NCBI RefSeq assembly: GCF_009811755.1
Contig: NZ_BLIV01000003.1
Coordinates: 248,001 to 312,000, forward strand
Source of the DNA: Roseobacter cerasinus
GTDB taxonomy: Bacteria; Pseudomonadota; Alphaproteobacteria; Rhodobacterales; Rhodobacteraceae
Direction: 5' to 3'
Length of the DNA stretch: 64,000 bases
Under the pieces are notes generated by a model. The model was not told the origin of the DNA. It made no database searches and saw only the letters and a list, made by a program, of their open reading frames with translations. Position numbers and translations under genes: made by a program. This document shows positions 7,742 to 20,456 of this stretch, one piece after another (positions within the stretch are counted from its first letter, which is position 1; each line of letters starts with the position of its first letter).

Positions 7742-8836
7742 TCAGAGCAGAACGGCCTGTCCCGTCCGCGCCGACTCCTGCGCTGCCATCCCCATTTTTA
7801 CAGCCCAAAGCCCGTCCTCAAAGGAGACCTCCGGCTGTGTCCGCCCGCCGCGTACAAGCTCCAGAAACTTCTGGTGTTGGTAAAAGGTCGAGCCGTTGTG
7901 GTCTCCGGCCTCCAGCAATTCAGGGTCCACAGGAATGGCGCGCGTTTCTGGCCGTTTCGGCATGCGGGGGCTGACTTCGAGCAGTGGCGTGGGCGCCGGG
8001 CCAAGATCCTCCGGCCAGAACCGGGTGGGCCCGGGCACGAAGGCCTCGATCTTGCCTGAGGCGCCGAGAGCCGAGATGGTTTCCTGATAACGCGCACCTT
8101 CGGCAAACATACACAGCTCAAGCAGGGTGCGCGCGCCGCACTCGAAATCGACAATCACGAAGCCGTTGTCGAGGATGTCGGGCACTGCGCCCTCATAGAT
8201 CTCCTCCAGATGGTTCACCGATTGCGCAGCACTTGCCATGATCCGAACAGGTCGCGTGCCGATCATCAACCGCATCAAGTCGAAGAAGTGGCAGCATTTC
8301 TCCACAAAGGTGCCACCCGTCTGCGCGTTGAAGCGGTTCCAGTTGCCGACCTTATGCAGAAACGGAAAGCGATGCTCGCGGATGGTCAGCATCTTGATGC
8401 CGCCAGTGACCTGATCGACTTCCTCCAGAAGTGCCGCGATGGGCGGCATGTAGCGGTACTCCATCGCAACCCAGATCGGTGCGGGATACGCGGCGGCACA
8501 GGCCGTCAGAGCCGGAATATCCGCCGGATCCGTCAGCAGCGGCTTTTCCATCAGCAAGGGCAGGGGGCGCAGCGCCGCAATCTGGGTCATCTGCGCCGCG
8601 TGGCAGTGGTTGGGGCTGGTGACCACAAGGCAATCCACCGCGTCATCCCGCACAAGGTCGTCCAAACTGTCGGCAAACCGGGCCTGCGGGGCAATCTTGG
8701 CGGCGGTGGCGCGCATGGCGGCATCCGGCTCGAAGATCGTTGTGACGGCGGTGTCCGGCAGCAATGCGATGTTTTTCAGGTGCTCCTGCCCCATCATGCC
8801 GCAGCCGATCATGCCGTAGCGGGTGGTTTGTCCCAT
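7742..8836 (-). CDS. Gfo/Idh/MocA-family protein, candidate NAD+-dependent sulfoquinovosidase
   Basis: The 364-residue product has the NAD(P)-binding loop at the start (YGMIGCGMMGQEH) and the family's EKP motif (LLMEKPLLTD, about residue 100). A second alpha/beta domain follows, containing GTFVEKCCHFFDL near residue 180. I chose the ATG at 8836 because it gives the usual N-terminus; the longer frame adds an unrelated tail. Most relatives are sugar dehydrogenases, and some are NAD-dependent glycosidases. The reported NAD+-dependent sulfoquinovosidases belong to this kind of fold and were noted in roseobacters. Next to a SmoABC-like set this is an attractive role: freeing sulfoquinovose from its glycoside. 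That is inference. It is co-directional with, and 10 bp after, the GntR gene. Confidence 0.75.
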   Translation of the reverse strand: MGQTTRYGMIGCGMMGQEHLKNIALLPDTAVTTIFEPDAAMRATAAKIAPQARFADSLDDLVRDDAVDCLVVTSPNHCHAAQMTQIAALRPLPLLMEKPLLTDPADIPALTACAAAYPAPIWVAMEYRYMPPIAALLEEVDQVTGGIKMLTIREHRFPFLHKVGNWNRFNAQTGGTFVEKCCHFFDLMRLMIGTRPVRIMASAAQSVNHLEEIYEGAVPDILDNGFVIVDFECGARTLLELCMFAEGARYQETISALGASGKIEAFVPGPTRFWPEDLGPAPTPLLEVSPRMPKRPETRAIPVDPELLEAGDHNGSTFYQHQKFLELVRGGRTQPEVSFEDGLWAVKMGMAAQESARTGQAVLL

Positions 8837-8846
8837 GGTCGTGTCC

Positions 8847-9554
8847 TTATTTGAGCCGCTGTACGTAGACGGATTTGCCCGTATCGAACCAGGTGCGGGA
8901 AAACTCAATAGGCTCCGGCCCGGCAGCCCAACTGAACCGTTCGATAAAGCCGCAAGGCGTGCCTGAGGCACCGAAATCATCCGGCGTCCAGGCGGGCAGG
9001 GTGCCGATGCTCACGCGGTCTTCGGCGCGGGTGATCCAGAATCCAAGTCGCTTGAGGTATGTCTGGTAGAGGGATTCGGCGAGCATATCGGCACTGAGCG
9101 TGCCGGCGTTGCCATCCAGCCAGATCTCCTCCACCGCAATTGGTACATCATTGAGGTAGCGACGGCGGCGGATACGTGTGGCCTGCGTGCTGGTTCCGAA
9201 GGTGGGCAGGTCGTCGGGTTTGCCTAAGCCCCTCACGTCGATGACATCTGCTGTGGGCAGCCCACCGCCCGAGAGCAGCTCCAGCCGGAACATCGCATAG
9301 ACGCCCGCCGCCTTGCCGGGCTTGCGGATGTAGTTGCCGGAGCCCTGCACCCGCTCCAACAGGCCTTTCTGCTCCAGATCGGCAAGGGCTTTGCGCAGCG
9401 TGCCGATGGAGGTGCCCATGTCGACGGCCATCTGCCGCTCAGGCGGCAAGCGTTCGCCTTCCAGCAACCGCCCGGCATCAATGTCGCGGATCAGCAACTC
9501 ACTCAGCTGTATGTATTTGGGCAGCGTTGTGCCGCGGGCGGGCGGGGTGGTCAT
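8847..9554 (-). CDS. GntR-family regulator with UTRA-type effector domain
   Basis: The 235-residue product starts at the ATG at 9554. The winged helix-turn-helix covers about residues 10-75 (YIQLSELLIRDIDAGRL...LPPERQMAVDMGTSIGTLRKAL...LLERVQGSGNYI). The C-terminal part (about 90-235) has the UTRA pattern of HutC-type GntR regulators, with RRRYLNDVPIAVEEIWL and a C-terminal FSRTWFDTG strand. Such domains bind small metabolites. It is divergent from the monooxygenase operon across a 99-bp gap and precedes the Gfo/Idh gene. It is probably the substrate-responsive repressor of both arms. Confidence 0.88.
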   Translation of the reverse strand: MTTPPARGTTLPKYIQLSELLIRDIDAGRLLEGERLPPERQMAVDMGTSIGTLRKALADLEQKGLLERVQGSGNYIRKPGKAAGVYAMFRLELLSGGGLPTADVIDVRGLGKPDDLPTFGTSTQATRIRRRRYLNDVPIAVEEIWLDGNAGTLSADMLAESLYQTYLKRLGFWITRAEDRVSIGTLPAWTPDDFGASGTPCGFIERFSWAAGPEPIEFSRTWFDTGKSVYVQRLK

Positions 9555-9575
9555 GCTGGGTGGCGTCTTTTGAAA

Positions 9576-9592
9576 ATTGATACACCATTGAT
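9576..9592. promoter_or_regulatory. Candidate GntR operator: two ATTGAT repeats one helical turn apart
   Basis: ATTGAT occurs at 9576-9581 and 9587-9592, an 11-bp spacing that puts both on the same DNA face, in the 99-bp gap between the divergent GntR and monooxygenase genes. GntR proteins usually bind near their own gene as dimers, but to inverted rather than direct repeats, so this is only a candidate. Confidence 0.35.
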
Positions 9593-9653
9593 CTACTGAT
9601 TTGCCGATGCTATGCAACAGGAAATTCAGTGCGAGACATGCGAAAGGATCCCC

Positions 9654-10808
9654 ATGACCGTTGTGCCCGTCACCTCTGCTGATCTCGATGCGGCAGAAGT
9701 TTCCTGGTTCGCCGCTTTGTGTTCGGATGACTACCAGTTTCTTGGGGTGCCGGATGGGGATCTGCGCTCTAGCTGGGCGCATTGTTCGGAGATTGTGAAG
9801 ACGGCTGAGGCGCAGGGGTTCCGTAACATCCTCTGCCCATCCTCCTATCAGGTGGGGCAGGACACGCTGAGCTTTGTGGCTGGTTGCGCGCCCATCACGG
9901 AAAAGATCAATTTGCTGGCGGCTGTGCGCTGTGGCGAGATGCAGCCGATCATGCTGGCGCGCACCATCGCGACGCTCGATCACATGCTGCAGGGGCGGCT
10001 GACGGTGAACATCATCAGCTCGGACTTCCCGGGCGAGAAGGCCGAGAGTGAGTACCGGTATCAGCGCTCGCGCGAGGTGGTCGAGATCCTCAAACAGGCA
10101 TGGACGCGGGATGAGATCGACCATGAGGGAGAGGTCTATAGCTTCAAGGGGCTGACCACCGACCCGGCGAAACCCTATCAGACCGGCGGGCCGCTTTTGT
10201 ATTTTGGTGGCTATTCCCCCGCCGCGCTCGATCTGTGTGCTGAGCATTGCGACGTCTACCTGATGTGGCCGGAACCAAAAGAGGCTATCGTGGGCCGGAT
10301 GCAGGCCGTGCATGACCGCGCGGCAGAGAAGGGGCGCACGCTGGATTATGGTCTGCGGGTGCACATGATCGTGCGGGACACCGAGGCTGAGGCCAAGGAA
10401 TACGCGGACTATATCGTCTCGAAGCTTGATGACGAGTATGGTCGCAAGATCCGCGAGCGGGCCTTGGATGCAACGTCGTTGGGCGTCTCGCACCAAGCCA
10501 AGAACCGCGATATCGCCGATGAGTTCGGCTATGTGGAGCCGCATCTCTGGACGGGTGTGGGCCGTGCGCGCTCGGGCTGTGGCGCGGCGCTTGTGGGCTC
10601 TGCCGATCAGGTTCTGTCCGAGATCGAAGCCTATCAGAAGATGGGCATTCGCGCCTTCATCTTCTCGGGTTATCCTCACAAGGAAGAGGCGGAGCATTTT
10701 GGCCGCTTGGTCATGCCGCATTTGAAAACCTGTTCTCTGCCGGAGGCTTACGGACGTGTCCCGCAAGCGGCTCCTGCCACGCCCCTTGCCGCAGGGGAGC
10801 GTCGCTGA
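9654..10808 (+). CDS. SsuD-like FMNH2-dependent sulfonate monooxygenase (SmoC-like)
   Basis: The product from the ATG at 9654 (GAAAGGAT just upstream as RBS) is 384 residues of the bacterial-luciferase-like TIM-barrel family. It follows the alkanesulfonate monooxygenase SsuD closely in its second half: LLYFGGYSPAALDLCAEHCD, YGLRVHMIVRDTEAEA, HLWTGVGRARSGCGAALVGS and FIFSGYPHKEEAEHFG. Such enzymes use FMNH2 and O2 to cleave a C-S bond, releasing sulfite and an aldehyde. In the sulfo-SMO pathway SmoC does this to sulfoquinovose, giving 6-oxo-glucose. The next two genes encode the kinds of partner SmoC needs. It overlaps the downstream gene by one base. Other C-S or C-N substrates remain possible. 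Confidence 0.85.
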   Translation: MTVVPVTSADLDAAEVSWFAALCSDDYQFLGVPDGDLRSSWAHCSEIVKTAEAQGFRNILCPSSYQVGQDTLSFVAGCAPITEKINLLAAVRCGEMQPIMLARTIATLDHMLQGRLTVNIISSDFPGEKAESEYRYQRSREVVEILKQAWTRDEIDHEGEVYSFKGLTTDPAKPYQTGGPLLYFGGYSPAALDLCAEHCDVYLMWPEPKEAIVGRMQAVHDRAAEKGRTLDYGLRVHMIVRDTEAEAKEYADYIVSKLDDEYGRKIRERALDATSLGVSHQAKNRDIADEFGYVEPHLWTGVGRARSGCGAALVGSADQVLSEIEAYQKMGIRAFIFSGYPHKEEAEHFGRLVMPHLKTCSLPEAYGRVPQAAPATPLAAGERR

Positions 10809-11698
10809 TGGACCGCGTAGCCCTCTCCGACACGCTGGAGTTCAGCCGCATTGTCTATGGCATGTGGCGGTTGGCCGATGACAGCGACACCTCGCCCGCC
10901 CATGTGCGCTCCAAGATCGACGCTTGCCTTGCGCAGGGCATCACGACGATGGACCAGGCCGACATTTACGGTGGTTACGCGGCCGAAGAGGTGCTGGGTG
11001 CGGCACTCAAGGAAAGCCCTGGCCTGCGTGATCAGCTAGAGATCGTGACCAAATGCGACATCATCGCGCCCATGGGCAAATATGCCGACCGGCGGGTGAA
11101 ATACTACGACACCTCGGCGGCGCATATTCAGGCGAGTGTCGAGGCCTCGCTGACCTACATGGGCATCGAGCAGATTGACCTGTTACTCATTCACCGCCCC
11201 GATCCGATGATGGACGCGGCAGAGACGGGTGGTGCGCTCGATGCGCTGATCCAGAGCGGCAAGATCAAGGCGGCGGGTGTCTCGAACTTCCGCCCGTGGG
11301 ATTGGCACCTGCTGCAATCCTGCATGACCAACAAACTGGGCACCAATCAGATCGAGATCAGCCTCGCCGCGCGCGACTGTTTCACCAACGGCGATCTGGC
11401 GCATTTGCAGCAGCATCACATCAGTCCGATGGCCTGGTCCCCGCTGGGCGGTGGCAGCCTGATGACCGAAGGCAGCGCTGTGGCACAGAAGATGGACGCG
11501 GTGGCGCAGGCGCAGGGCGTGGACCGGGCGGCAGTCGCCGTGGCGTGGTTGCTGGCGCATCCGGCGGGCATCCTGCCGGTCATGGGCACGAACACGCTCT
11601 CGCGCATTGCCGCATTCTCAGATGCCTTCAAGGTCGAGATGGACCGGCAGACCTGGTTTGAGCTTTACGAGGCCGCAAACGGCCAGGAGGTGCCATGA
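10808..11698 (+). CDS. Aldo/keto reductase, YdhF-like (SmoB-like)
   Basis: The 296-residue (alpha/beta)8 product carries the AKR catalytic landmarks: DQADIYGGY at about residue 49 (Asp and Tyr), the Lys of VTKCD at about 80, and the His of LLLIHRPDP at about 123. It also has GVSNF, and a C-terminal NADPH-binding segment with MGTNTLSRI. It resembles E. coli YdhF along its length. In the sulfo-SMO pathway the AKR SmoB reduces 6-oxo-glucose to glucose with NADPH. Its position, overlapping both the monooxygenase and flavin reductase genes, fits that role. The substrate is inferred from context. Confidence 0.85.
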   Translation: MDRVALSDTLEFSRIVYGMWRLADDSDTSPAHVRSKIDACLAQGITTMDQADIYGGYAAEEVLGAALKESPGLRDQLEIVTKCDIIAPMGKYADRRVKYYDTSAAHIQASVEASLTYMGIEQIDLLLIHRPDPMMDAAETGGALDALIQSGKIKAAGVSNFRPWDWHLLQSCMTNKLGTNQIEISLAARDCFTNGDLAHLQQHHISPMAWSPLGGGSLMTEGSAVAQKMDAVAQAQGVDRAAVAVAWLLAHPAGILPVMGTNTLSRIAAFSDAFKVEMDRQTWFELYEAANGQEVP

Positions 11699-12222
11699 TG
11701 GCGGACGGAACACGGCAAATGGCCCAGCTTCACAGCTTTGCACCCGGCCCGGACACGCAGCGGCAGCTGCGCAGCGCCTTCGGCCAATTCAGCACCGGCG
11801 TGACGGTGGTGACGGCTCAGACGGCGGAGGGCCCGATTGGCATGACGGCCAATTCTTTTTCCAGTGTCTCGGTGGACCCCGCCCTTGTGCTCTGGTGCCC
11901 GGCGAAATCCTCAAGCCGCTATCCGCATTTCGCCGCCGCCGAGCATTTTGCAATCCATGTCATGGGCGCAGAGCACGAGGGCATCGCCATGGGCTTTGCC
12001 AAATCGGGGCAGGCCTTTGATGGGCTCGACGTGACGCACAACGCCCATGGCGTACCATTGCTGGGCGATTGTCTGGCGCGCTTCGAGTGTACCACCCACC
12101 AGATTCATGACGCAGGCGACCACGCAATTGTCGTGGGCCGTGTCGGGTCAGCCGCGTTCCGGGAGGGGGACGCGCTGATTTTTTGCCAAGGCCGCTTCGG
12201 ACGGTTTGACAAACCGGCCTAA
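11695..12222 (+). CDS. NAD(P)H:flavin reductase (SmoA-like)
   Basis: The 175-residue product has the flavin-reductase domain of the HpaC/SsuE-partner type: RSAFGQFSTGVTVVTAQ, GMTANSFSSVSVDPALVLWC and a C-terminal LIFCQGRFGRF. It would supply reduced FMN to the adjacent luciferase-like monooxygenase. The start overlaps the AKR stop (ATGA). A paralogue sits at 48324-48836 without a monooxygenase neighbour. The 80-bp gap that follows contains a hairpin before the transporter genes. Confidence 0.88.
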   Translation: MMADGTRQMAQLHSFAPGPDTQRQLRSAFGQFSTGVTVVTAQTAEGPIGMTANSFSSVSVDPALVLWCPAKSSSRYPHFAAAEHFAIHVMGAEHEGIAMGFAKSGQAFDGLDVTHNAHGVPLLGDCLARFECTTHQIHDAGDHAIVVGRVGSAAFREGDALIFCQGRFGRFDKPA

Positions 12223-12239
12223 AAGGCCAACCAATGAAG

Positions 12240-12260
12240 CGTGCGGGGAAAACCCGCACG
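12240..12260 (+). promoter_or_regulatory. Intercistronic hairpin between enzyme and transporter genes
   Basis: CGTGCGGG (12240-12247) pairs exactly with CCCGCACG (12253-12260) around a GAAAA loop. There is no U-run, so it is not a standard terminator. It more likely sets relative expression or mRNA stability between the flavin reductase and TRAP genes. A strong purine-rich RBS (GGGAGGAGG) for the next gene follows. Confidence 0.6.
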
Positions 12261-12302
12261 TCGTGACCTGGAGTACCCGGGCACAAGGGAGGAGGCTCCG
12301 GA

Positions 12303-12893
12303 ATGGGGGCATTGCTGGCGGTGATGACACCGCTCCGGCTGGTCAACGAGGTCGTGCTCAAGCTGGGCAGGAGCCTCGGGGTGGTGGCTGTGGCACTGAT
12401 GGTCACCGCGATCCTCATTCAGGTGTTCTACCGCTATGTGCTGAACAACGCGCTGCCCTGGCCCGATGAGGCGGCGCGGTTTTGCATGTTGTGGATGACC
12501 GGGTTGATGGCGCCGACGGCGTTCCGGCGCGGCGGGTTTGTTGCCATTGACACAGTGGTTCGCCTTCTGCCAGAGCGTCTGGGCGCTCTGATTTCTCTGA
12601 TGCTCCTGTTTCTCAGCCTTGGTGTGCTCGTTGTGGCCGTGCAAATCGGCTGGTCTGAGGTGACTGGATTTGCTGGGAAATTCGCAACTGCGTCCTTGTA
12701 TCTGCCGACAAATCTGAGCTTTGAAAACTGGTACCGCGTGCCACGCAGCTGGATGATGGCCTCGCTGCTCTTTGGGGTGATCGCGCTGATTTCGGTGAAT
12801 ATCGAGCTGATCCTGCGGGCGGTTATCAAGATGATGGGCGGGGCGGATCACTTGCCCGCGATCACGGTCGAAGAACAAGTGGGAGCGGAGTAA
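12303..12893 (+). CDS. TRAP transporter small membrane subunit (DctQ type)
   Basis: The 196-residue product has four hydrophobic segments at about residues 24-46, 58-75, 98-118 and 148-172. It carries the DctQ signature around WPDEAARFCMLWMTGL. It forms the small membrane component that pairs with the DctM channel subunit. It starts at the ATG at 12303 after a strong RBS and overlaps dctM by one base. Substrate is not readable from the sequence; the operon suggests a sulfonated sugar or its glycoside. Confidence 0.88.
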   Translation: MGALLAVMTPLRLVNEVVLKLGRSLGVVAVALMVTAILIQVFYRYVLNNALPWPDEAARFCMLWMTGLMAPTAFRRGGFVAIDTVVRLLPERLGALISLMLLFLSLGVLVVAVQIGWSEVTGFAGKFATASLYLPTNLSFENWYRVPRSWMMASLLFGVIALISVNIELILRAVIKMMGGADHLPAITVEEQVGAE

Positions 12894-14182
12894 TGCTGGT
12901 CTGGTTTCTTCCGCTTTTCTTGTTGTTCCTGATGATCGGCCTGCCGGTGTTCTTCGGCCTGCTGGCCGCGCCCGGAATCCTGCTGTGGCTGAACGGGCAG
13001 GAGCGTGATATCACGCTGCTCTACCGCAACCTCTACAACGGGATGGACAGTTTCCCGCTGATGGCGATCCCCTTCTTCATGCTTGCGGGCGAGCTGATGA
13101 ACCGGGGCGGCATCACCATGCGATTGGTGGAGTTCTCCCAGGCCATGATGGGCCATTTCCGGGGCGGTCTGGCCCATGTGAACATCTTATCGTCTATGCT
13201 CTTTGCGGGCCTGTCAGGCTCGGCTGTGGCCGACACTTCTGCGCTGGGGTCCATGCTGATCCCGGCGATGGAGAAGCAGGGCTATAAGCGCCGCTTCGCA
13301 GCGGCGATCACGGCAGCGAGTTCGGTGATCGGCCCGATCATCCCCCCGTCGGGCATCATGATCATCTATGCCTATGTGATGGGCGAGAGCGTCGCGGCCC
13401 TCTTTCTTGCAGGCATTGTGCCGGGGGTGATGGTGGGCCTTGGCCTGATGCTGATGGTCAAGTTCCAGGCCGACAAATACGACTTCCCGGTCGCCACCAA
13501 AAAGCACTCCTGGGGCGAACGCGGGCAGGCGAGCCTCAAGGCATTTTTCCCGCTGCTGACCCCGGTGATCATCCTTGGGGGCATCCTCGCCGGCGTCTTC
13601 ACCCCCACCGAAGCGGCCGCTGTGGCCGTGGCCTATGCGCTGATCATCGGGCTTTTTGTCATGCGCACACTGAAATTCAGCGACCTGCCGGATGTGTTGA
13701 ACCGGGCCGGGATCACGTCGGCCGTGGTGCTGCTGCTGGTGGGCGCCGCGATGGCCTTCAAAACGGTGGTCAGCCTCAGCCATGCGCCCGAGACCATGGC
13801 GGAGTTTGTGCTCAGCCTGACAAGCAACCCGCTGATCTTGCTGTTCCTAATCAACCTGCTGCTGTTCATCGTGGGCATGTTCCTCGACGCAGGCCCCGCG
13901 ATCATCATCCTTGGCCCCATCCTGGGCCCGATCTTCGTGAGCCTTGGGGTCGATCCGATCCACTTTGCGATCATCATGAGCGTGAATCTGACCGTGGGGC
14001 TGGCCACGCCGCCCATGGGGCTGGTGCTCTTTGTCGCCTCGTCGGTCTCGGGCGAACGGGTCGAGACCATCTCAAAGGCGATCCTGCCGTTTCTGGCGGT
14101 AGAGATACTGGTGATATTCCTGATCACCTACATACCGGCCATCTCCATGACGGTTCCGCGTCTGACGGGCTTTGCAAACTAG
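12893..14182 (+). CDS. TRAP transporter large permease (DctM type)
   Basis: The 429-residue product has about twelve hydrophobic segments and typical DctM stretches: GMDSFPLMAIPFFMLAGELM, LSGSAVADTSALGSMLIP, ASSVIGPIIPPSGIMIIYAYV, GVFTPTEAAAVAV, and near the end VNLTVGLATPPMGLVLF. It forms the sodium-coupled translocation channel. One-base overlap with dctQ and a 24-bp gap to dctP give the order Q-M-P, with the binding protein last. Confidence 0.92.
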   Translation: MLVWFLPLFLLFLMIGLPVFFGLLAAPGILLWLNGQERDITLLYRNLYNGMDSFPLMAIPFFMLAGELMNRGGITMRLVEFSQAMMGHFRGGLAHVNILSSMLFAGLSGSAVADTSALGSMLIPAMEKQGYKRRFAAAITAASSVIGPIIPPSGIMIIYAYVMGESVAALFLAGIVPGVMVGLGLMLMVKFQADKYDFPVATKKHSWGERGQASLKAFFPLLTPVIILGGILAGVFTPTEAAAVAVAYALIIGLFVMRTLKFSDLPDVLNRAGITSAVVLLLVGAAMAFKTVVSLSHAPETMAEFVLSLTSNPLILLFLINLLLFIVGMFLDAGPAIIILGPILGPIFVSLGVDPIHFAIIMSVNLTVGLATPPMGLVLFVASSVSGERVETISKAILPFLAVEILVIFLITYIPAISMTVPRLTGFAN

Positions 14183-14206
14183 ACAACATCCAATGGGAGG
14201 AAAATC

Positions 14207-15265
14207 ATGATCAAAAACACCCTGAAATCGCTGACCGTGGCGGCCATGCTGGCCGGGTCCGCGATGGCGGCGGCGGCGCAGGACTACACGCTGCGCGCCA
14301 CGGCGAACTCCAACGAGAATGATGAAGACTACGACGGCCTCGTGGTCTTCAAGAACTACGTTGAGGCCGCGTCCAACGGTGCCATCGCGGTGGAGCTTTT
14401 CATCGGCACACAGCTGTGTGGCAACGGCGCGGAGTGTCTGCAGGGCGTGGCCGACGGCACCATCGACATCTATGTCTCCACCTCAGGTGGCGCCTCGGGC
14501 ATCTTCCCTTATGTGCAGGTGCTCGACCTGCCGTATCTCATGGCAGATGACCGGATTGCTGAGCATGTGCTCTCTGGCGATTTCACCCGCAAAATGCGGC
14601 AGATGGCGCTGGAGGACTCCGGTGACGCGATCCGTCTGATGACCATCGGCAACACGGGTGGCTGGCGCAACTTCGCCAACACCAAGCGGCGCATTGCAGA
14701 GCCCTCCGATATGGAAGGCCTGAAAATCCGCACCGTCGTGGCCGACCTGCCGCAAGAGCTTGTGAAAGCGCTTGGCGCTGCCCCCACGCCGATCCCATGG
14801 CCTGAACTCTTCACGTCGTTCCAGACCGGCGTGGTAGAAGGCTCCAAGAATGGCATCACCGACATCATGGGCATGAAATTCCCCGACGCGGGGCTGAAGT
14901 ACGTCACACTCGACGGCCACGCCTACATGGGCGCGCTGTGGTGGATGAACAACGCCCGCTTCCAGGAGATGCCGGAAGACCTGCGCCGCGTGGTGGTCGA
15001 TGGCTTCTATGCCTTGCAACAGGCGACTTTTGCCTCGCCCAAGCGCAAGTCCATCGCGGCCTATGAGCAGTTCGTAACCGAAGGCGGTGACCTCTACGTG
15101 CCCACGCCTGAACAGAAAGCTGCCTTTAAAGAAGGTGCCGCGCCGGTGTTTGACTGGTTCAAAGGCAACGTGGGCCGTGGGGAAGAAATCTTTGACGCGT
15201 TGACCTCTGCGGTGGCCGAAGCCGAAGAAGAGATAGGCGCGGCACGGGCAGCTGATCTGAACTGA
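14207..15265 (+). CDS. TRAP transporter periplasmic binding protein (DctP family)
   Basis: The 352-residue product has a signal peptide (MIKNTLKSLTVAAMLAGSAMAAAAQ, cleavage near residue 25) and the DctP fold. The hallmark segment NTGGWRNFANTKRRI...DMEGLKIRT contains the Arg that normally binds a substrate carboxylate. PIPWPELFTSFQTGVVEG and the WWMNNARFQEMPEDLR helix follow. In this cluster the ligand may be a sulfonate rather than a carboxylate, which the same Arg could bind; this is untested. It is the last gene of the operon, with a clear terminator 22 bp downstream. Confidence 0.9.
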   Translation: MIKNTLKSLTVAAMLAGSAMAAAAQDYTLRATANSNENDEDYDGLVVFKNYVEAASNGAIAVELFIGTQLCGNGAECLQGVADGTIDIYVSTSGGASGIFPYVQVLDLPYLMADDRIAEHVLSGDFTRKMRQMALEDSGDAIRLMTIGNTGGWRNFANTKRRIAEPSDMEGLKIRTVVADLPQELVKALGAAPTPIPWPELFTSFQTGVVEGSKNGITDIMGMKFPDAGLKYVTLDGHAYMGALWWMNNARFQEMPEDLRRVVVDGFYALQQATFASPKRKSIAAYEQFVTEGGDLYVPTPEQKAAFKEGAAPVFDWFKGNVGRGEEIFDALTSAVAEAEEEIGAARAADLN

Positions 15266-15286
15266 TCTTTCAGATCCGTAAATGTT

Positions 15287-15316
15287 ACGGGCCGCCCACC
15301 GTGGCGGCCCGTTTTT
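15287..15316 (+). terminator. Rho-independent terminator after the TRAP operon
   Basis: ACGGGCCGCC (15287-15296) pairs exactly with GGCGGCCCGT (15303-15312) around a six-base loop and runs into TTTTT. It lies 22 bp after dctP and ends the rightward operon. The minus-strand carbonic anhydrase gene ends 13 bp further on. Confidence 0.88.
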
Positions 15317-15328
15317 CGTCTGTCCAGT

Positions 15329-16192
15329 CTATTCGATGGTAGACAGCAGCGCAGGGTTCATGACCAGGTTGCGCACGCCATGGGCGGCATTCTCATCAAA
15401 GACATTGTCCTTGAACCACGCATCGACGCTTGCAATATCCAGCTTGACCACATCGGGCCGCACGCTCCAGGTCACTTGAAAGGGTGAGCCTTTCTCGTTG
15501 AAGCTGGGGCCGGTTGTGGAGCCTGCATAGACAATTGGATCCCCCAGATCGGTCGGCAGATTCGGCACCTGTGCCAGGCCGGCATCGGTGGAGATCGTCG
15601 CCATTTCGGTGAAATCCGCTGCCGCATCGTCGTTTACCAGCACCGCCACAACCGTCTCGACGCGCAGCTGCGGGTTGCCGATGGCCTCGCTGATGCAGGA
15701 GCCGAGCGTCGGCCCCGGGGTCACCTTGGCCGAGGAATGCACGAAGTGGATCTCGATGGTGTCGCCCGGCTCCAGCCCGCCATGGGCCAGATCGCCGATG
15801 GGCGCATCAAGCGGTGCAAGCTCGGCGTCCGTCAGTTCGCCATCATAGAGAAACCCGGTGCCATACCCCTTGCCGTCGCCGTTCCCGGCGTAGGTGGTGA
15901 AGTTGCCGCCCTTGTGCTCAGCCCCTTCATGAAAGTGGATGTTGCACAGATTCATCTCCGTATGCGCCGGGGCGGTCGCAAAGATCCGCTGGTTCTCGCC
16001 CGTAACGGTGCCCAGATCGCGGGGCGCCTGCGGGCCAAAGCCAGCATCCTTGGTGGCGGCGGCCAGCGCCGCGCGTTGCTCCGCGATCACTGCGTCCGAG
16101 ACATCCGAGGCCGCATAGGCCGCTTGGGCTGCAACTGCGGTGACCGTGATCGTAGCCAGAAGCGGCCTGTGCGTCAAAACTCTGAAAAACAT
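15329..16192 (-). CDS. Delta-class carbonic anhydrase, exported
   Basis: The 287-residue product starts at the ATG at 16192, preceded by GGGAGAAA. It has a signal peptide ending near AAQAAYA, so it should be periplasmic. The core NLCNIHFHEGAEHKGG (about residues 80-95), with clustered His for metal binding, and the segments EPGDTIEIHFVHSSAKV and LGSCISEAIGNPQLRVE match what I know as delta-class carbonic anhydrases. That class was first described in diatoms and is now seen in marine proteobacteria. It would interconvert CO2 and bicarbonate outside the cytoplasm. Single gene, co-directional with the Sel1 gene upstream. Confidence 0.8.
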   Translation of the reverse strand: MFFRVLTHRPLLATITVTAVAAQAAYAASDVSDAVIAEQRAALAAATKDAGFGPQAPRDLGTVTGENQRIFATAPAHTEMNLCNIHFHEGAEHKGGNFTTYAGNGDGKGYGTGFLYDGELTDAELAPLDAPIGDLAHGGLEPGDTIEIHFVHSSAKVTPGPTLGSCISEAIGNPQLRVETVVAVLVNDDAAADFTEMATISTDAGLAQVPNLPTDLGDPIVYAGSTTGPSFNEKGSPFQVTWSVRPDVVKLDIASVDAWFKDNVFDENAAHGVRNLVMNPALLSTIE

Positions 16193-16358
16193 GATTTCTC
16201 CCTTATTGGTGTCGCCAACGTGGCGACGCACCTTCCAAGGTTTATCGACCCGGTGCCACGACACAAGCCCAACCGACCGGATCACAAAGCTGTGTTCGTG
16301 CCGGTCGTCGGCGCCCGGAAACATCCGGGCTTTTTTCCGCTGTGCGCCCGTGCCACAG

Positions 16359-16829
16359 TCAGCGAAACGGATACATCCACACTTTGTAGTCGGCCACCAA
16401 CTCATGCGCCTTTTCGATCTCCGCCTTGGTCATCTTCTTCACGACCTCTTCCAGGCTGATTGCGGCGTCCGGGTCGCCGCCGATGGCCGAAAGCGTGTAC
16501 CACATATAGGCGCGCACAAGGTCCGGGGCAGGCATGCCGCGCCCGATCTCATAGTACCAGCCAACGCCCGACTGCGCGCCCGGATGCCCTTTCATGGCCG
16601 AACGCAGGTACCACTCGAAGGCGCGGATATCGTCGCGGGGGAGGCCAAGGCCCATCGCATACATCACGCCAATCAGCTCTTCGGCATCCGCGTTGCCGGA
16701 CCGCGCGGCGGGCCAAAGCGCCTGATAGGCCTCTTCAAAGCGGCCCTCTTCCATCATGTCGCGCGCCTCTTCGATCTCGGCAAAGGCCGGGCCGGTCAGC
16801 AGCGCAAGGGCAAGGCAAAAATTGCGCAT
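16359..16829 (-). CDS. Exported Sel1/TPR-like repeat protein
   Basis: From the ATG at 16829 the product has 156 residues. It has a signal peptide (MRNFCLALALLTGPAFA) and then two to three Sel1-like repeats at about residues 40-125, with patterns such as GVMYAMGLGLPRDDIRAFEWYLRSA and GVGWYYEIGRGMPAPDLVRAYMWYTLSA. Such repeats form alpha-solenoids for protein contacts. The partner is unknown. The start lies only a few bases from the 5' end of the divergent peroxidase gene. Confidence 0.78.
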   Translation of the reverse strand: MRNFCLALALLTGPAFAEIEEARDMMEEGRFEEAYQALWPAARSGNADAEELIGVMYAMGLGLPRDDIRAFEWYLRSAMKGHPGAQSGVGWYYEIGRGMPAPDLVRAYMWYTLSAIGGDPDAAISLEEVVKKMTKAEIEKAHELVADYKVWMYPFR

Positions 16830-18119
16830 GGGGTTCTTCTCTCCTGCTTCGCGACATGGGCGGCTGCGGGCGATCTGCCGCCGCCGCTGACCCAGGCGGA
16901 TTTTCTCGACTTCGACCGGGAGCAGGCCGCACTGGGCCAGTACTTGTTCTACGATACCATCCTCTCGGGCAACCGGAATATCTCTTGTGCGCATTGCCAC
17001 CATCCGGAGTTTGGCACAGGCGACGGGCTGTCTTTGGGGATTGGCGAAGGCGGGCAGGGGCTGGGGCCGGAGCGCACGCCGGGCATCGGCCTATCGCGCA
17101 TCGCCAAACGCATCCCGCGCAACGCGCCGGGCTTGTGGAACCTCGGCGCGCGAGATCTGACGGTGATGTTCCACGATGGGCGGCTCAGCCAGTCTGATCT
17201 CTTCGGCAATGGCTTCAACTCTCCGGCGGAGGAATGGCTGCCGCAGGGGTTGGAGACGCTGCTCGCCGCACAGGCGCTGTTTCCGCTGGTGGCGCAGTTC
17301 GAGATGGCGGGCAACCCTGGCGAGAATGAGGTCATCGGCGCGGTGCATGACCGCATCGACAACGCCTGGCCAATCCTCGCCAAACGGGTCCGTACGGAGG
17401 ATGACTATGGTGCGCGCTTTGTGGCCGCCTTCGATCACATCGAGGCATCCGAAGAGGTCACTATTGTCGAGATCGCCAATGCGCTTGCCGCTTTCATGGC
17501 CCTGGAGTGGACCAGCTTTGACAGCCCCTTTGACCAGTATCTGGCCGGGAACCACGCCGCTCTGACGCCGGACCAACGCGCGGGGATGCAGCTTTTCTAT
17601 GGCAAAGCCGCTTGCGCCAGATGCCACTTCGGGTCATTGATGAGTGACCAAAAGTTCCATGCGCTGGGTCTGCCAGCCTTTGGCCCGGGGCGCACGCGGC
17701 TCTTTGACCCTTACGCACGGGATGTGGGCCGGATGAGCGAAAGCAACCGGTTGGAAGACGCCTACGCCTTCCGCACCCCGATGCTGCGCAATGTGGCGCT
17801 GACGGCGCCTTACGGGCATAACGGTGCCTTTGCGACGCTGGAGGGCATCCTGCGCCACCACCTCGACCCGGCGCAGTCGCGCGCCGCGTGGCAGCCCGAG
17901 GATGCGAGATTGCCTGAGGTGCCCTGGCTGGCGGCGGCGGATTTCGTGATCCGGTCGGACGTGCGTGAGATGGCGCGTCAGGCGCGCGTGGTGCCCGCCA
18001 AAGGCCCCGAGCTGAATGACGTGGAAATCGCCCAGATCATCGCCTTTCTGGAAAGCCTCACGGGCACCCGCAGCGTGACCCACCCGCCCTTTGGCGTGCC
18101 GGAGGGGTTTACGCCCTGA
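16821..18119 (+). CDS. Di-haem cytochrome c peroxidase family protein (MauG/CCP), start unclear
   Basis: The product has two CXXCH haem sites, SCAHCH near the N-terminus and ACARCHF near residue 258, plus family motifs such as RNAPGLWNLG, MFHDGRLS, FRTPMLRNVALTAPYGHNGAFATLEGILRHH and LNDVEIAQIIAFLESL. This marks it as a periplasmic di-haem peroxidase. A signal-peptide-like stretch (HGVLLSCFATWAAAG) precedes the mature part. However, no in-frame ATG, GTG or TTG lies near it: the closest candidate is an ATT at 16821, and frames further upstream are antisense to the Sel1 gene. A rare start or a small 5' lesion is possible. It overlaps the convergent GH1 gene by 11 bp. Confidence 0.8.
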   Translation: MAHGVLLSCFATWAAAGDLPPPLTQADFLDFDREQAALGQYLFYDTILSGNRNISCAHCHHPEFGTGDGLSLGIGEGGQGLGPERTPGIGLSRIAKRIPRNAPGLWNLGARDLTVMFHDGRLSQSDLFGNGFNSPAEEWLPQGLETLLAAQALFPLVAQFEMAGNPGENEVIGAVHDRIDNAWPILAKRVRTEDDYGARFVAAFDHIEASEEVTIVEIANALAAFMALEWTSFDSPFDQYLAGNHAALTPDQRAGMQLFYGKAACARCHFGSLMSDQKFHALGLPAFGPGRTRLFDPYARDVGRMSESNRLEDAYAFRTPMLRNVALTAPYGHNGAFATLEGILRHHLDPAQSRAAWQPEDARLPEVPWLAAADFVIRSDVREMARQARVVPAKGPELNDVEIAQIIAFLESLTGTRSVTHPPFGVPEGFTP

Positions 18120-19422
18120 GCGCCTTTGCCAGCGCATGATAGGAGGCTTTCGGGGTCCGCTCCAGCGTGTCGAAATCCACGTGGATGAGGCCAAAGCGCT
18201 TCTCATACCCCAGCGCCCACTCGTAGTTGTCCATCAGCGACCAGAAGGTATAGCCCTTCAAGGGCACACCCTCGGCCATCGCCTGTTGCGCAGCCGCGAT
18301 ATGGGCGTCCAGATAGTCGATACGCGCCTGATCGGGTACGCCCGCCTCATCCGCGTTGGCCATGCCATTCTCTGTCACGTAGAGCGGCAGGCCCTTGGTG
18401 TAGGTGTCATGCACCCAGGTCAGGAAGTGGTGCAGCCCCTTGGGATAAATCTCCCAGCCCATCTGTGTCTTGGGCAGGGGGCCGTCGACTTCTTCATGCG
18501 CAGGCCAGGGGCCACCCACCGGCGCAATCCGCTTGCAGGTGTAGTAGTTCAGCCCACACCAGTCGAGCGGCTGGCCGATGAGGTCAAAGTCCTGCTCCCA
18601 ACCCTTTGGCATATGCGGGCCGAGACCTTGCATCACATCCTCGGGGTAGGCGCCTTTGAAGAGACCTCCAAGAAAGAAGCGGTTGTAGTAGCCATCGTAA
18701 AGCTGCGCTGCCTGCGCCGCTTCGGGTGTGTCATCGGCGGGATGCGCGTATTCAAAGTTGCAGACGGCGCCGAGGTTTTTCATGCCCAAGGCCCGCATCG
18801 CCTGAATGGCCCGGCCATGGCCTGTCAGCACGTGGTGCATCGCATGGGCCGTCGCCCGGATGTCGCGCAGACCGGGCGCATGATGCCCCACGAAATGCGA
18901 CAACCAGCCGACGCACCAAGGCTCATTGATGGGGGCAGCACTGAAGATCCGGTCTCCGATCCGCTGCATGATCACAGTGGTGTAGTCGGCAAACCAATGT
19001 GCGATGTCCGGGTTGCGCCAACCGCCCAGATCGGCCAGCGGCACCGGTAGCTCCCAATGATAGAGCGTGACCATCGGGTTCAGCCCGCGCGCCAGCAGCC
19101 CGTCGACCAGCTGGTCGTAGAAGTCCAGACCCTCTTCGTTCACCGTGCCCCGCCCCTCCGGCAGCACCCGCGCCCAACTCGTCGAAAAGCGGTAGGCATC
19201 CAATCCAAGCGCCTGCATGAGGTCGAGGTCTTCCTCCCAGCGGTGATAGTGATCGCAGGCCACCGCGCCATTTTCCGCCCGGACCACATTGCCCGGTGTG
19301 GCCGCGAAACTGTCCCAATGCGTCGGGCCCGCGCCGCCAAAGCTGTGTCCCTCGATCTGATAGCTGGAGGTGGCGGCGGCAAACTGAAAGCCATCGGGAA
19401 AATCCGAACGTTTGAAATCCAT
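18109..19422 (-). CDS. GH1 beta-glucosidase
   Basis: The 437-residue cytoplasmic product is a full-length glycoside hydrolase family 1 enzyme. N-terminal FPDGFQFAAATSSYQIEG is typical. The acid/base Glu lies in APINEPWC (about residue 165) and the nucleophile Glu in YVTENGMA (about residue 350). The C-terminal FWSLMDNYEWALGYEKRFGL is the usual aglycone-site segment. It hydrolyses beta-glucosides. The ATG at 19422 overlaps the stop of the LacI regulator by TGATG, so both are co-transcribed and divergent from the alpha-glucoside uptake operon. Confidence 0.93.
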   Translation of the reverse strand: MDFKRSDFPDGFQFAAATSSYQIEGHSFGGAGPTHWDSFAATPGNVVRAENGAVACDHYHRWEEDLDLMQALGLDAYRFSTSWARVLPEGRGTVNEEGLDFYDQLVDGLLARGLNPMVTLYHWELPVPLADLGGWRNPDIAHWFADYTTVIMQRIGDRIFSAAPINEPWCVGWLSHFVGHHAPGLRDIRATAHAMHHVLTGHGRAIQAMRALGMKNLGAVCNFEYAHPADDTPEAAQAAQLYDGYYNRFFLGGLFKGAYPEDVMQGLGPHMPKGWEQDFDLIGQPLDWCGLNYYTCKRIAPVGGPWPAHEEVDGPLPKTQMGWEIYPKGLHHFLTWVHDTYTKGLPLYVTENGMANADEAGVPDQARIDYLDAHIAAAQQAMAEGVPLKGYTFWSLMDNYEWALGYEKRFGLIHVDFDTLERTPKASYHALAKALRA

Positions 19423-20456
19423 CACAGGTCCCTTTGCGGGCAGGGGCCGGTGGAGGCGCCGATCACCAGATCCGCCTCCCAGAGTTCAGTCGGCAGGGGT
19501 TGGTCAGGCTCCGCGATCTGCCCCATCAGCAGTTCCGCACACCGCCGCCCAGCCGCGCGGACGGAGGAGCGCATCGCTGTGAACTGCGGGCGGTCTGTCC
19601 CGTTGGGCAGGTAGGACAGCTCATCATCGAAACACAAAACGGAGACATCGCGCCCCATGCGCAGCCCGCGCTCTTCGATGGCGCGCCGGACCCCAAGCGC
19701 CAGCACAAGAGAGGAGGCCACAAGCGCTGTGGGCGGCTGGGGCAAATCGAGCATGCGATGAGCCGCACTATGGCCGCGCGGCTCGCTCATCTCTGCCGAG
19801 TGCATCAAGGCCGGGTCCGGCGCGAGGCCTGCCGCCGCGAGGGCGGCCAGATACCCATCGCGCCGCCGTTGCGCAAAATCCAGCCGTTCTTCGCCATTGA
19901 TCAGCCCGATGCGGCGATGTCCAAGGTCGAGCAAATGGCCTGTGCCCGTTGCGATGGCGCAGGTGTTGTTCACGTCGAGCCACGCGTAGGGCGTTTTCAC
20001 TTCGGAGACGCGCCCGTGCACCAGAAACGGGATATCGAGATCGGCCAGCACAGCGATACGCGGGTCATCCCGCGCCGGGGAGTGCACGATGATTCCGTCC
20101 ACGGCACCTTTCTCCGCGACACCGCGATAGGCGCTCAACTCATCCTCGTCCCGGACCAGCGCCAGGCTCATGCTATAGCCGTGCCCGGCATAGACTTCCC
20201 CCGCGCCGGCGATGAAATCCGCAAAGACGACATTCACCATCTCATTCTGGTTGGAGAACGGAATGATGTGCCCAATAGCCATGGCGCGACCCGTGGCCAG
20301 CGTCCGGGCGCGCACGTTGGGGCGGTAGTTGAACTTCGCGGCGGCGGCGGCCACCCGGGCGCGTGTCTGCTCGTTGACTTCCGGGTATCCGTTCAACGCC
20401 CGGCTGACCGTGGTCTGCGACAGGTTCAGCCGTTCGGAAAGCTCGCGTAGATTCAT
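19422..20456 (-). CDS. aglR: LacI-family regulator, AglR-type
   Basis: The 344-residue product has an N-terminal LacI helix-turn-helix (MNLRELSERLNLSQTTVSRALNG) and hinge (NYRPNVRARTLATG). A periplasmic-binding-protein-like effector domain follows, with DGIIVHSP, HRRIGLINGEE and VSVLCFDDE. It is divergent from aglEFGAK and overlaps the GH1 gene, the arrangement expected for AglR, the repressor of alpha-glucoside uptake. The 16-bp palindrome at 20631-20646 is its likely operator. The name rests on synteny with the known rhizobial agl locus. Confidence 0.85.
   Translation of the reverse strand: MNLRELSERLNLSQTTVSRALNGYPEVNEQTRARVAAAAAKFNYRPNVRARTLATGRAMAIGHIIPFSNQNEMVNVVFADFIAGAGEVYAGHGYSMSLALVRDEDELSAYRGVAEKGAVDGIIVHSPARDDPRIAVLADLDIPFLVHGRVSEVKTPYAWLDVNNTCAIATGTGHLLDLGHRRIGLINGEERLDFAQRRRDGYLAALAAAGLAPDPALMHSAEMSEPRGHSAAHRMLDLPQPPTALVASSLVLALGVRRAIEERGLRMGRDVSVLCFDDELSYLPNGTDRPQFTAMRSSVRAAGRRCAELLMGQIAEPDQPLPTELWEADLVIGASTGPCPQRDL

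Follow-up and report, generated by a model that had tools for sequence, protein, structure and literature searches.

Sulfoquinovose (SQ) is the sulfur-containing sugar found in the membranes of plants and algae. The sulfoquinovose monooxygenase (sulfo-SMO) pathway of Agrobacterium (SmoABC, SmoI and SmoEFGH) was reportedly described by Sharma et al. in 2022, and Liu et al. (ISME J, 2023) are said to have grown Dinoroseobacter and Roseobacter on SQ with induction of SMO proteins; tripartite ATP-independent periplasmic (TRAP) transporter proteins may be reported there too. Here we analysed a 64,000-nucleotide stretch of the Roseobacter cerasinus genome (4.47 Mb, 24 contigs), positions 248,001 to 312,000 of contig NZ_BLIV01000003.1 and hereafter called the window, which very probably carries a sulfo-SMO locus for SQ utilisation of the Roseobacter clade, with a TRAP transporter importing SQ or its glycoside. 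SQ is counted among the most abundant organosulfur compounds in a passage of PMC10755693, and the sulfo-SMO pathway is prevalent in bacteria of the Roseobacter clade (PMC13372026). Passages of PMC9594981 and PMC12421959 mention, respectively, the ATP-binding cassette (ABC) importer of Agrobacterium and ABC importers for SQ and sulfofucose. The open-licence literature returned nothing relevant linking SQ with a TRAP transporter; TRAP genes in such clusters may well be in print.

An earlier note, made from the DNA letters, had described an SsuD-like monooxygenase, a YdhF-like aldo/keto reductase and a flavin reductase in overlapping genes, followed by TRAP genes in the order Q-M-P and a terminator, and had likened them to the sulfo-SMO cluster. 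The genes are borne out by open reading frames and family matches, and the overall interpretation was largely right. The gene content, gene order and family memberships were read directly: all eight genes of the cluster are open and intact and stand in the order and places named there. SmoC and SmoB overlap by 1 bp (10808) and SmoB and SmoA by 4 bp (11695-11698), the TRAP set of DctP, DctQ and DctM is complete, and the terminator-like stem at 15287-15312 is the strongest of 12 such sites in 10.6 kb scanned (7.3 expected).

The monooxygenase is identical to PDB 7oh2 at 301 of 383 positions (78.6%) and scores 703 bits with it and 699 with 7olf, both of which we take to be SmoC, whereas 7jv3 (209), SsuD (195), a nitrilotriacetate (NTA)-family enzyme (47) and DszA (28) fall far behind. 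On these scores an SsuD-type or NTA-type monooxygenase is rejected, and the clustering with NTA or dibenzothiophene types that the earlier note had named as the contrary case was looked for and not seen. On the SsuD model TIGR03565 the protein reaches 249.8 bits, under half of the 518.2 cut-off. Its best start is the ATG at 9654; the open reading frame start at 9612 adds 14 residues that lack a counterpart in the two best solved relatives. SmoB matches 7bby/7bbz, presumably SmoB structures, with 446 bits, as against 211 for YdhF. The flavin reductase is matched at the level of its family (Flavin_Reduct, 131 bits; PDB 4xhy, 160 bits), and its position in the operon supports assignment as SmoA.

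The earlier note had also placed a divergent GntR/Gfo-Idh pair beside the operon; both genes are present and oriented opposite to the smo/TRAP genes, but the supposed Gfo/Idh gene (7742-8836) is by sequence a GH188 NAD+ (nicotinamide adenine dinucleotide)-dependent sulfoquinovosidase, which that note had overlooked. It scores 602 bits with 8zn9, about 350 with SqgA (8qc2 and 8qc3) and at most 55 with other Gfo/Idh-type chains, which rules out an ordinary dehydrogenase. All eight compared residues are kept (K107, Y136, R166, L170, K172, E189, H193 and H321; numbering of Kaur et al.), including the sulfonate triad R166/L170/K172, in motifs at positions 97, 126, 155, 178 and 310 of the window protein; Glu163 could not be placed by the numbering of that paper, and a Glu stands one position off. 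The residues contacting SQ and its sulfonate are those given in a passage of Kaur et al. 2023 (PMC10755693), and the sulfonate site of GH188 is also treated in part of PMC11465081. Since Kaur et al. call GH188 near-universal in Roseobacter sulfo-SMO clusters, its presence in this cluster is already known, and part of PMC12890257 describes the GH188 sulfoquinovosidase as widespread in marine Roseobacteraceae. No GH31 sulfoquinovosidase was found in the genome by a search that was positive in 6 of 14 control genomes.

Examination of a family sample of 394 genomes (thresholds of E <= 1e-100 for SmoC and E <= 1e-80 for DctP) found SmoC in 165, DctP in 144 and both in 110, so that TRAP is the majority partner of SmoC in this sample. 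Positions of both genes are listed for 98 genomes: in 92 of these a distance of 3.3-5.1 kb separates DctP from SmoC, with both on the same strand, and in the other six the two are on different contigs. The order that the earlier note proposed to look for in related genomes thus recurs in the SmoC and TRAP loci examined, indicating that the cluster is not a chance arrangement. Replacement of the ABC importer by TRAP, as that note proposed, stands at this locus, where the Q-M-P genes are complete; its view of the locus as a marine variant needs amending, as this is the commoner layout (110 of 165 SmoC genomes) and not an exotic one. We fetched 20 of the 55 SmoC-only genomes, 20 of the 34 with DctP but no SmoC, and 18 loci with both. 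In the 20 SmoC-only loci, ABC permease or binding-protein genes were found in eight, an ABC ATPase match only in five and neither in seven; the typing used four references taken from the fetched loci themselves, two of which are among the eight positives.

By DctP, the nearest named relatives are Roseobacter strains, such as Roseobacter sp. MH60115 at 98% identity. A search of 385 genomes of the class found DctPs of 79-81% identity in six that belong to other families, and related DctPs of 51-91% identity lie on 11 plasmid records, so the TRAP block is evidently mobile. The model of the window DctP (predicted local distance difference test score, pLDDT, 81) has the isethionate binder 8t9t as its first fold match, which would fit a sulfonate ligand.

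The same TRAP genes recur with a second pathway. Of the 20 fetched loci that have DctP without SmoC, 16 carry them in an operon of sulfo-Embden-Meyerhof-Parnas (sulfo-EMP) type with DctQ, DctM, DctP, a PfkB kinase, a LacD-type aldolase, an isomerase and GH188, joined by a DeoR regulator (14 of 16), a mutarotase (10) or an aldehyde dehydrogenase (8); locus L062 provided the family assignments, and similarity to L062 served to type the rest. The best NCBIfam match of the L062 isomerase is SQ isomerase (258 bits, below the 700 cut-off), and the DctPs of these operons are 75-86% identical to that of the window. Because two different SQ pathways share GH188 and TRAP, SQ or its glycoside is indicated as the common substrate, and this sharing is the best evidence here that TRAP carries it. 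A DctP tree (117 rows) mixes the two contexts: the EMP label changes 13 times on the best tree, and supported (starred) branches force at least five changes, the tree being made by a quick method with 53 of 114 inner branches drawn open and one suspect long-branch join. The other four loci (L073, L075, L077 and L079, from genomes G226, G359, G143 and G040) have GH188 and/or SmoB beside TRAP and no SmoC match; a different C-S cleaving enzyme, or decay, is possibly the cause. A contig labelled as a gammaproteobacterial metagenome-assembled genome (L265) has a sulfo-EMP-type/TRAP operon with 81% DctP identity, reflecting transfer or mis-binning.

From sequence and gene context we infer the DctP ligand, the sodium coupling, the enzyme activities and the binding of the regulator. 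SQ or sulfoquinovosyl glycerol would be caught by DctP in the periplasm, and SQ or its glycoside imported with sodium by DctQM. In the cytoplasm, GH188 would cleave the glycoside, NAD+ serving as its catalytic cofactor. SmoA would supply reduced flavin mononucleotide (FMNH2), with which SmoC, using O2, would split off sulfite and leave 6-oxo-glucose, to be reduced to glucose by SmoB. A glucokinase gene is present elsewhere in the genome, and its product could phosphorylate the glucose; a Mo-co_dimer protein of the sulfite-oxidase type is encoded on contig 2.

Both arms of the locus would be controlled by GntR through a conserved element between them. AATTGATACACTATTGATCTAC or a near copy lies in the GntR-SmoC gap of all 101 loci with both genes matched (at 9575 in the window); the element matrix was built from these gap sites, and their scores are not independent evidence. 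Beyond this gap, eight places across the scanned loci score above 14. Three of these precede dctQ in loci without a SmoC match (L077, L264 and L266), which ties TRAP to the same control. GntR may bind the element, which could instead be promoter sequence.

Further downstream lie a Sel1-repeat gene and, divergent from it, a gene for a di-haem MauG-like protein, whose association with TRAP is well supported by the genome comparison, unexplained and possibly new; the open-licence literature returned nothing relevant on SQ with MauG or cytochrome c peroxidase, or on a di-haem MauG with a TRAP transporter. The MauG-like gene (at least 410 bits) is present in 106 of 144 DctP genomes, 5 of 55 SmoC-only genomes and 2 of 195 others. 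Copies of at least 500 bits number 102; 101 of them come from genomes that have DctP or SmoC, and for 81 the distance to DctP is no more than 12 kb. More distant copies of about 47% identity are widespread. Among the fetched loci, both genes of the pair occur in 16 of the 20 that have DctP without SmoC, in 9 of the 18 that have SmoC and DctP and in none of the 20 SmoC-only loci, two of which have the MauG-like gene without Sel1. DctP was also used to select another 91 loci: 80 named ones, which are the best 80 of 578 relatives, and 11 found in the class search, with some genomes occurring in the earlier sets as well. Here the pair is complete in 60 of the 66 loci of sulfo-SMO type, in 6 of the 7 of sulfo-EMP type and in 14 of the 18 that are of another kind or cut off. 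Sel1 is opposed to DctP in all 105 loci in which DctP, Sel1 and the MauG-like gene were found, and gave no match in 20 loci around MauG-like copies away from TRAP (L126-L145, including the G152 copy). The TRAP genes and the neighbouring Sel1/MauG-like pair behave as one block that occurs in combination with different SQ pathways.

The MauG-like protein is a member of the wider CCP_MauG family with two CXXCH motifs, and its scores of 117, 138 and 258 bits are below the cut-offs of all three NCBIfam models compared (TIGR03791, 444; TIGR04039, 363; TIGR03981, 340). Its structural model (pLDDT 73; fold matches with a template modelling score of about 0.5 and a root mean square deviation of at least 7) would support assignment to the di-haem peroxidase/MauG family and no narrower one. 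In the window, the 35 in-frame codons upstream (16780-16887) contain no ATG, GTG or TTG, though a signal-peptide-like stretch lies there, and six other loci (L206, L207, L208, L280, L226 and L103), several close Roseobacter relatives among them, likewise lack a start codon ahead of such a stretch. In close Roseobacter loci, ABC permease matches occur downstream of the MauG-like gene. Maturation of DctP by the MauG-like enzyme finds no support in the sequences compared: DctPs of 60 MauG-positive and 37 MauG-negative genomes (97 genomes from the loci, of 144 with DctP) revealed no Trp, Tyr or Cys specific to the positives, and W153, W198, W245, W317 and C71/C77 occur in both sets.

Could the monooxygenase and TRAP serve other substrates? 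SsuD/MsuD-like sulfur scavenging on simple alkanesulfonates, with TRAP importing a C2 or C3 sulfonate such as isethionate, would agree with the membership of SmoC in the luciferase-like family of SsuD, with the PDB names of 7oh2 and 7olf (alkanesulfonate monooxygenase and methanesulfonate sulfonatase) and with the first fold match of DctP, but is highly improbable given the gulf between SsuD and 7jv3 (195-209 bits) and 7oh2/7olf (about 700); it would also leave SmoB and GH188 without a role, and the same TRAP clade is found in GH188/SQ-isomerase-type operons that have no monooxygenase. The TRAP transporter might instead be an operon passenger importing, for example, a sugar acid while SQ enters through an ABC system elsewhere. 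Sugar acids and carboxylates are frequent ligands of TRAP binding proteins, and eight of the 20 SmoC-only loci have ABC genes instead; we nonetheless consider a passenger unlikely, because TRAP accompanies two different SQ pathways, its spacing from SmoC is conserved and the element found upstream of SmoC also precedes dctQ in L264 and L266. Several points weigh against SQ uptake by this TRAP and degradation by these enzymes. In two loci, L197 and L264, no SQ enzyme was recognised around the TRAP, Sel1 and MauG-like block, which would also suit a passenger, and L073, L075, L077 and L079 have TRAP and SMO-type genes without SmoC. DctP is only 24% identical to 8t9t, many other TRAP binding proteins score close behind, and confidence is low at 198-215 of its model, close to conserved residues. 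We presume that 7oh2 and 7olf are SmoC and that 7bby and 7bbz (named aryl-alcohol dehydrogenase in the PDB) are SmoB, and none of these codes appears in the passages of two reviews; the SmoA family is generic, and the DctP ligand and enzyme activities are deduced. Gene context still gives good evidence that the TRAP transporter is dedicated to SQ or its glycoside.

The Sel1/MauG-like pair could be a neighbour kept by local synteny and unrelated to SQ, which we hold to be rather unlikely. In the window the terminator and a delta-carbonic-anhydrase gene stand between dctP and the pair, the pair is missing from half of the 18 fetched loci with SmoC and DctP, and genomes G152 and G097 carry a high-scoring MauG-like copy without DctP or SmoC matches. 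The element gave no match above threshold in the Sel1-MauG gap of the loci scanned, which disfavours direct control of the pair by the same regulator. An underpowered test of joint TRAP and MauG-like gain on a SmoC tree (38 loci) rests on one independent pair on supported branches (200 pairings: same way 0.7, no difference 0.3). Against mere synteny, the pair follows TRAP in both pathway contexts, and high-scoring copies are nearly confined to genomes where DctP or SmoC is present. Of the 20 sulfo-EMP-type loci with a kinase match, 17 have the end of the MauG-like gene overlapping the estimated start of the kinase gene by 1 or 4 bp, and the remaining three have gaps of 2, 32 and 59 bp. Tentatively, TRAP, the Sel1-repeat protein and the MauG-like protein might form a portable periplasmic SQ module recombined with cytoplasmic pathways, in which the di-haem enzyme would oxidise a periplasmic target in a so far unrecognised reaction required for the uptake or use of SQ; the target could be, for instance, its Sel1-repeat partner or the sulfolipid-derived substrate. 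The oxidation of MbnP by MbnH provides a model for the former.

Table 1. Predicted features of the SQ locus and its flank (window coordinates)
Feature	Position	Strand	Evidence
Predicted GH188 NAD+-dependent sulfoquinovosidase, Gfo/Idh/MocA-like	7742..8836	-	PDB matches and aligned residues
GntR/UTRA transcriptional regulator	8850..9554	-	GntR 58 bits, UTRA 63 bits
Conserved operator-like element AATTGATACAC(T/C)ATTGATCTAC	9575..9601	+	GntR-SmoC gap, window score 36.9
SmoC, predicted FMNH2-dependent sulfoquinovose monooxygenase	9654..10808	+	703 bits, 78.6% identity to 7oh2
SmoB, predicted 6-oxo-glucose reductase, aldo/keto reductase	10808..11698	+	446 bits to 7bby/7bbz
SmoA, flavin reductase (predicted)	11695..12222	+	Flavin_Reduct 131 bits, 4xhy 160 bits, position
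TRAP small permease DctQ	12303..12893	+	Family match
TRAP large permease DctM	12893..14182	+	Family match
TRAP solute-binding protein DctP, sulfoquinovose-associated clade	14207..15265	+	Family match, relatives, model
Intrinsic terminator-like site behind DctP	15287..15312	+	10 pairs, 9 GC, T run
Delta carbonic anhydrase-type protein, between dctP and Sel1 gene	15329-16288	-	Pfam CA_like 240 bits
Sel1-repeat protein, 156 aa, N-terminus signal-peptide-like, divergent from MauG-like gene	16359..16829	-	
Di-haem MauG/cytochrome-c-peroxidase-like protein, two CXXCH	16887..18119, true start upstream of 16887	+	
GH1 beta-glucosidase adjoining cluster	18109-19425	-	556 bits to TIGR03356

A sodium-driven TRAP importer suits seawater, whereas soil bacteria use an ATP-driven one, and DctP could serve to detect SQ uptake in ocean metagenomes regardless of the cytoplasmic pathway behind it. 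Should the Sel1/MauG-like pair prove to be part of the system, sulfosugar uptake would include a redox step that has so far escaped notice. The MauG-like protein shares the di-haem CCP_MauG domain and two CXXCH motifs with MauG, MbnH and bacterial di-haem cytochrome c peroxidases; it differs from the proteins of the MauG, MbnH and HxS-associated NCBIfam models in falling below their cut-offs and in being paired with a Sel1-repeat protein and TRAP.

The cluster resembles the Agrobacterium sulfo-SMO cluster in having SmoC, SmoB and SmoA orthologues in one operon. It differs in its importer (TRAP QMP here, an ABC importer with a SmoF-like binding protein there) and its sulfoquinovosidase (GH188 here, GH31 there), and no exporter gene was recognised in the window cluster. 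The ABC importer is a feature of the Agrobacterium cluster and not of the sulfo-SMO pathway as such. SqgA (8qc2 and 8qc3) is of the same GH188 family with the same eight active-site and sulfonate residues, and no difference from it was found. The sulfo-SMO clusters of the Roseobacter clade, to which this strain belongs, share GH188 with the window and show no essential difference at the level of the enzymes. Sulfo-SMO enzymes are known in this clade, and the locus is the known pathway in its usual marine form.

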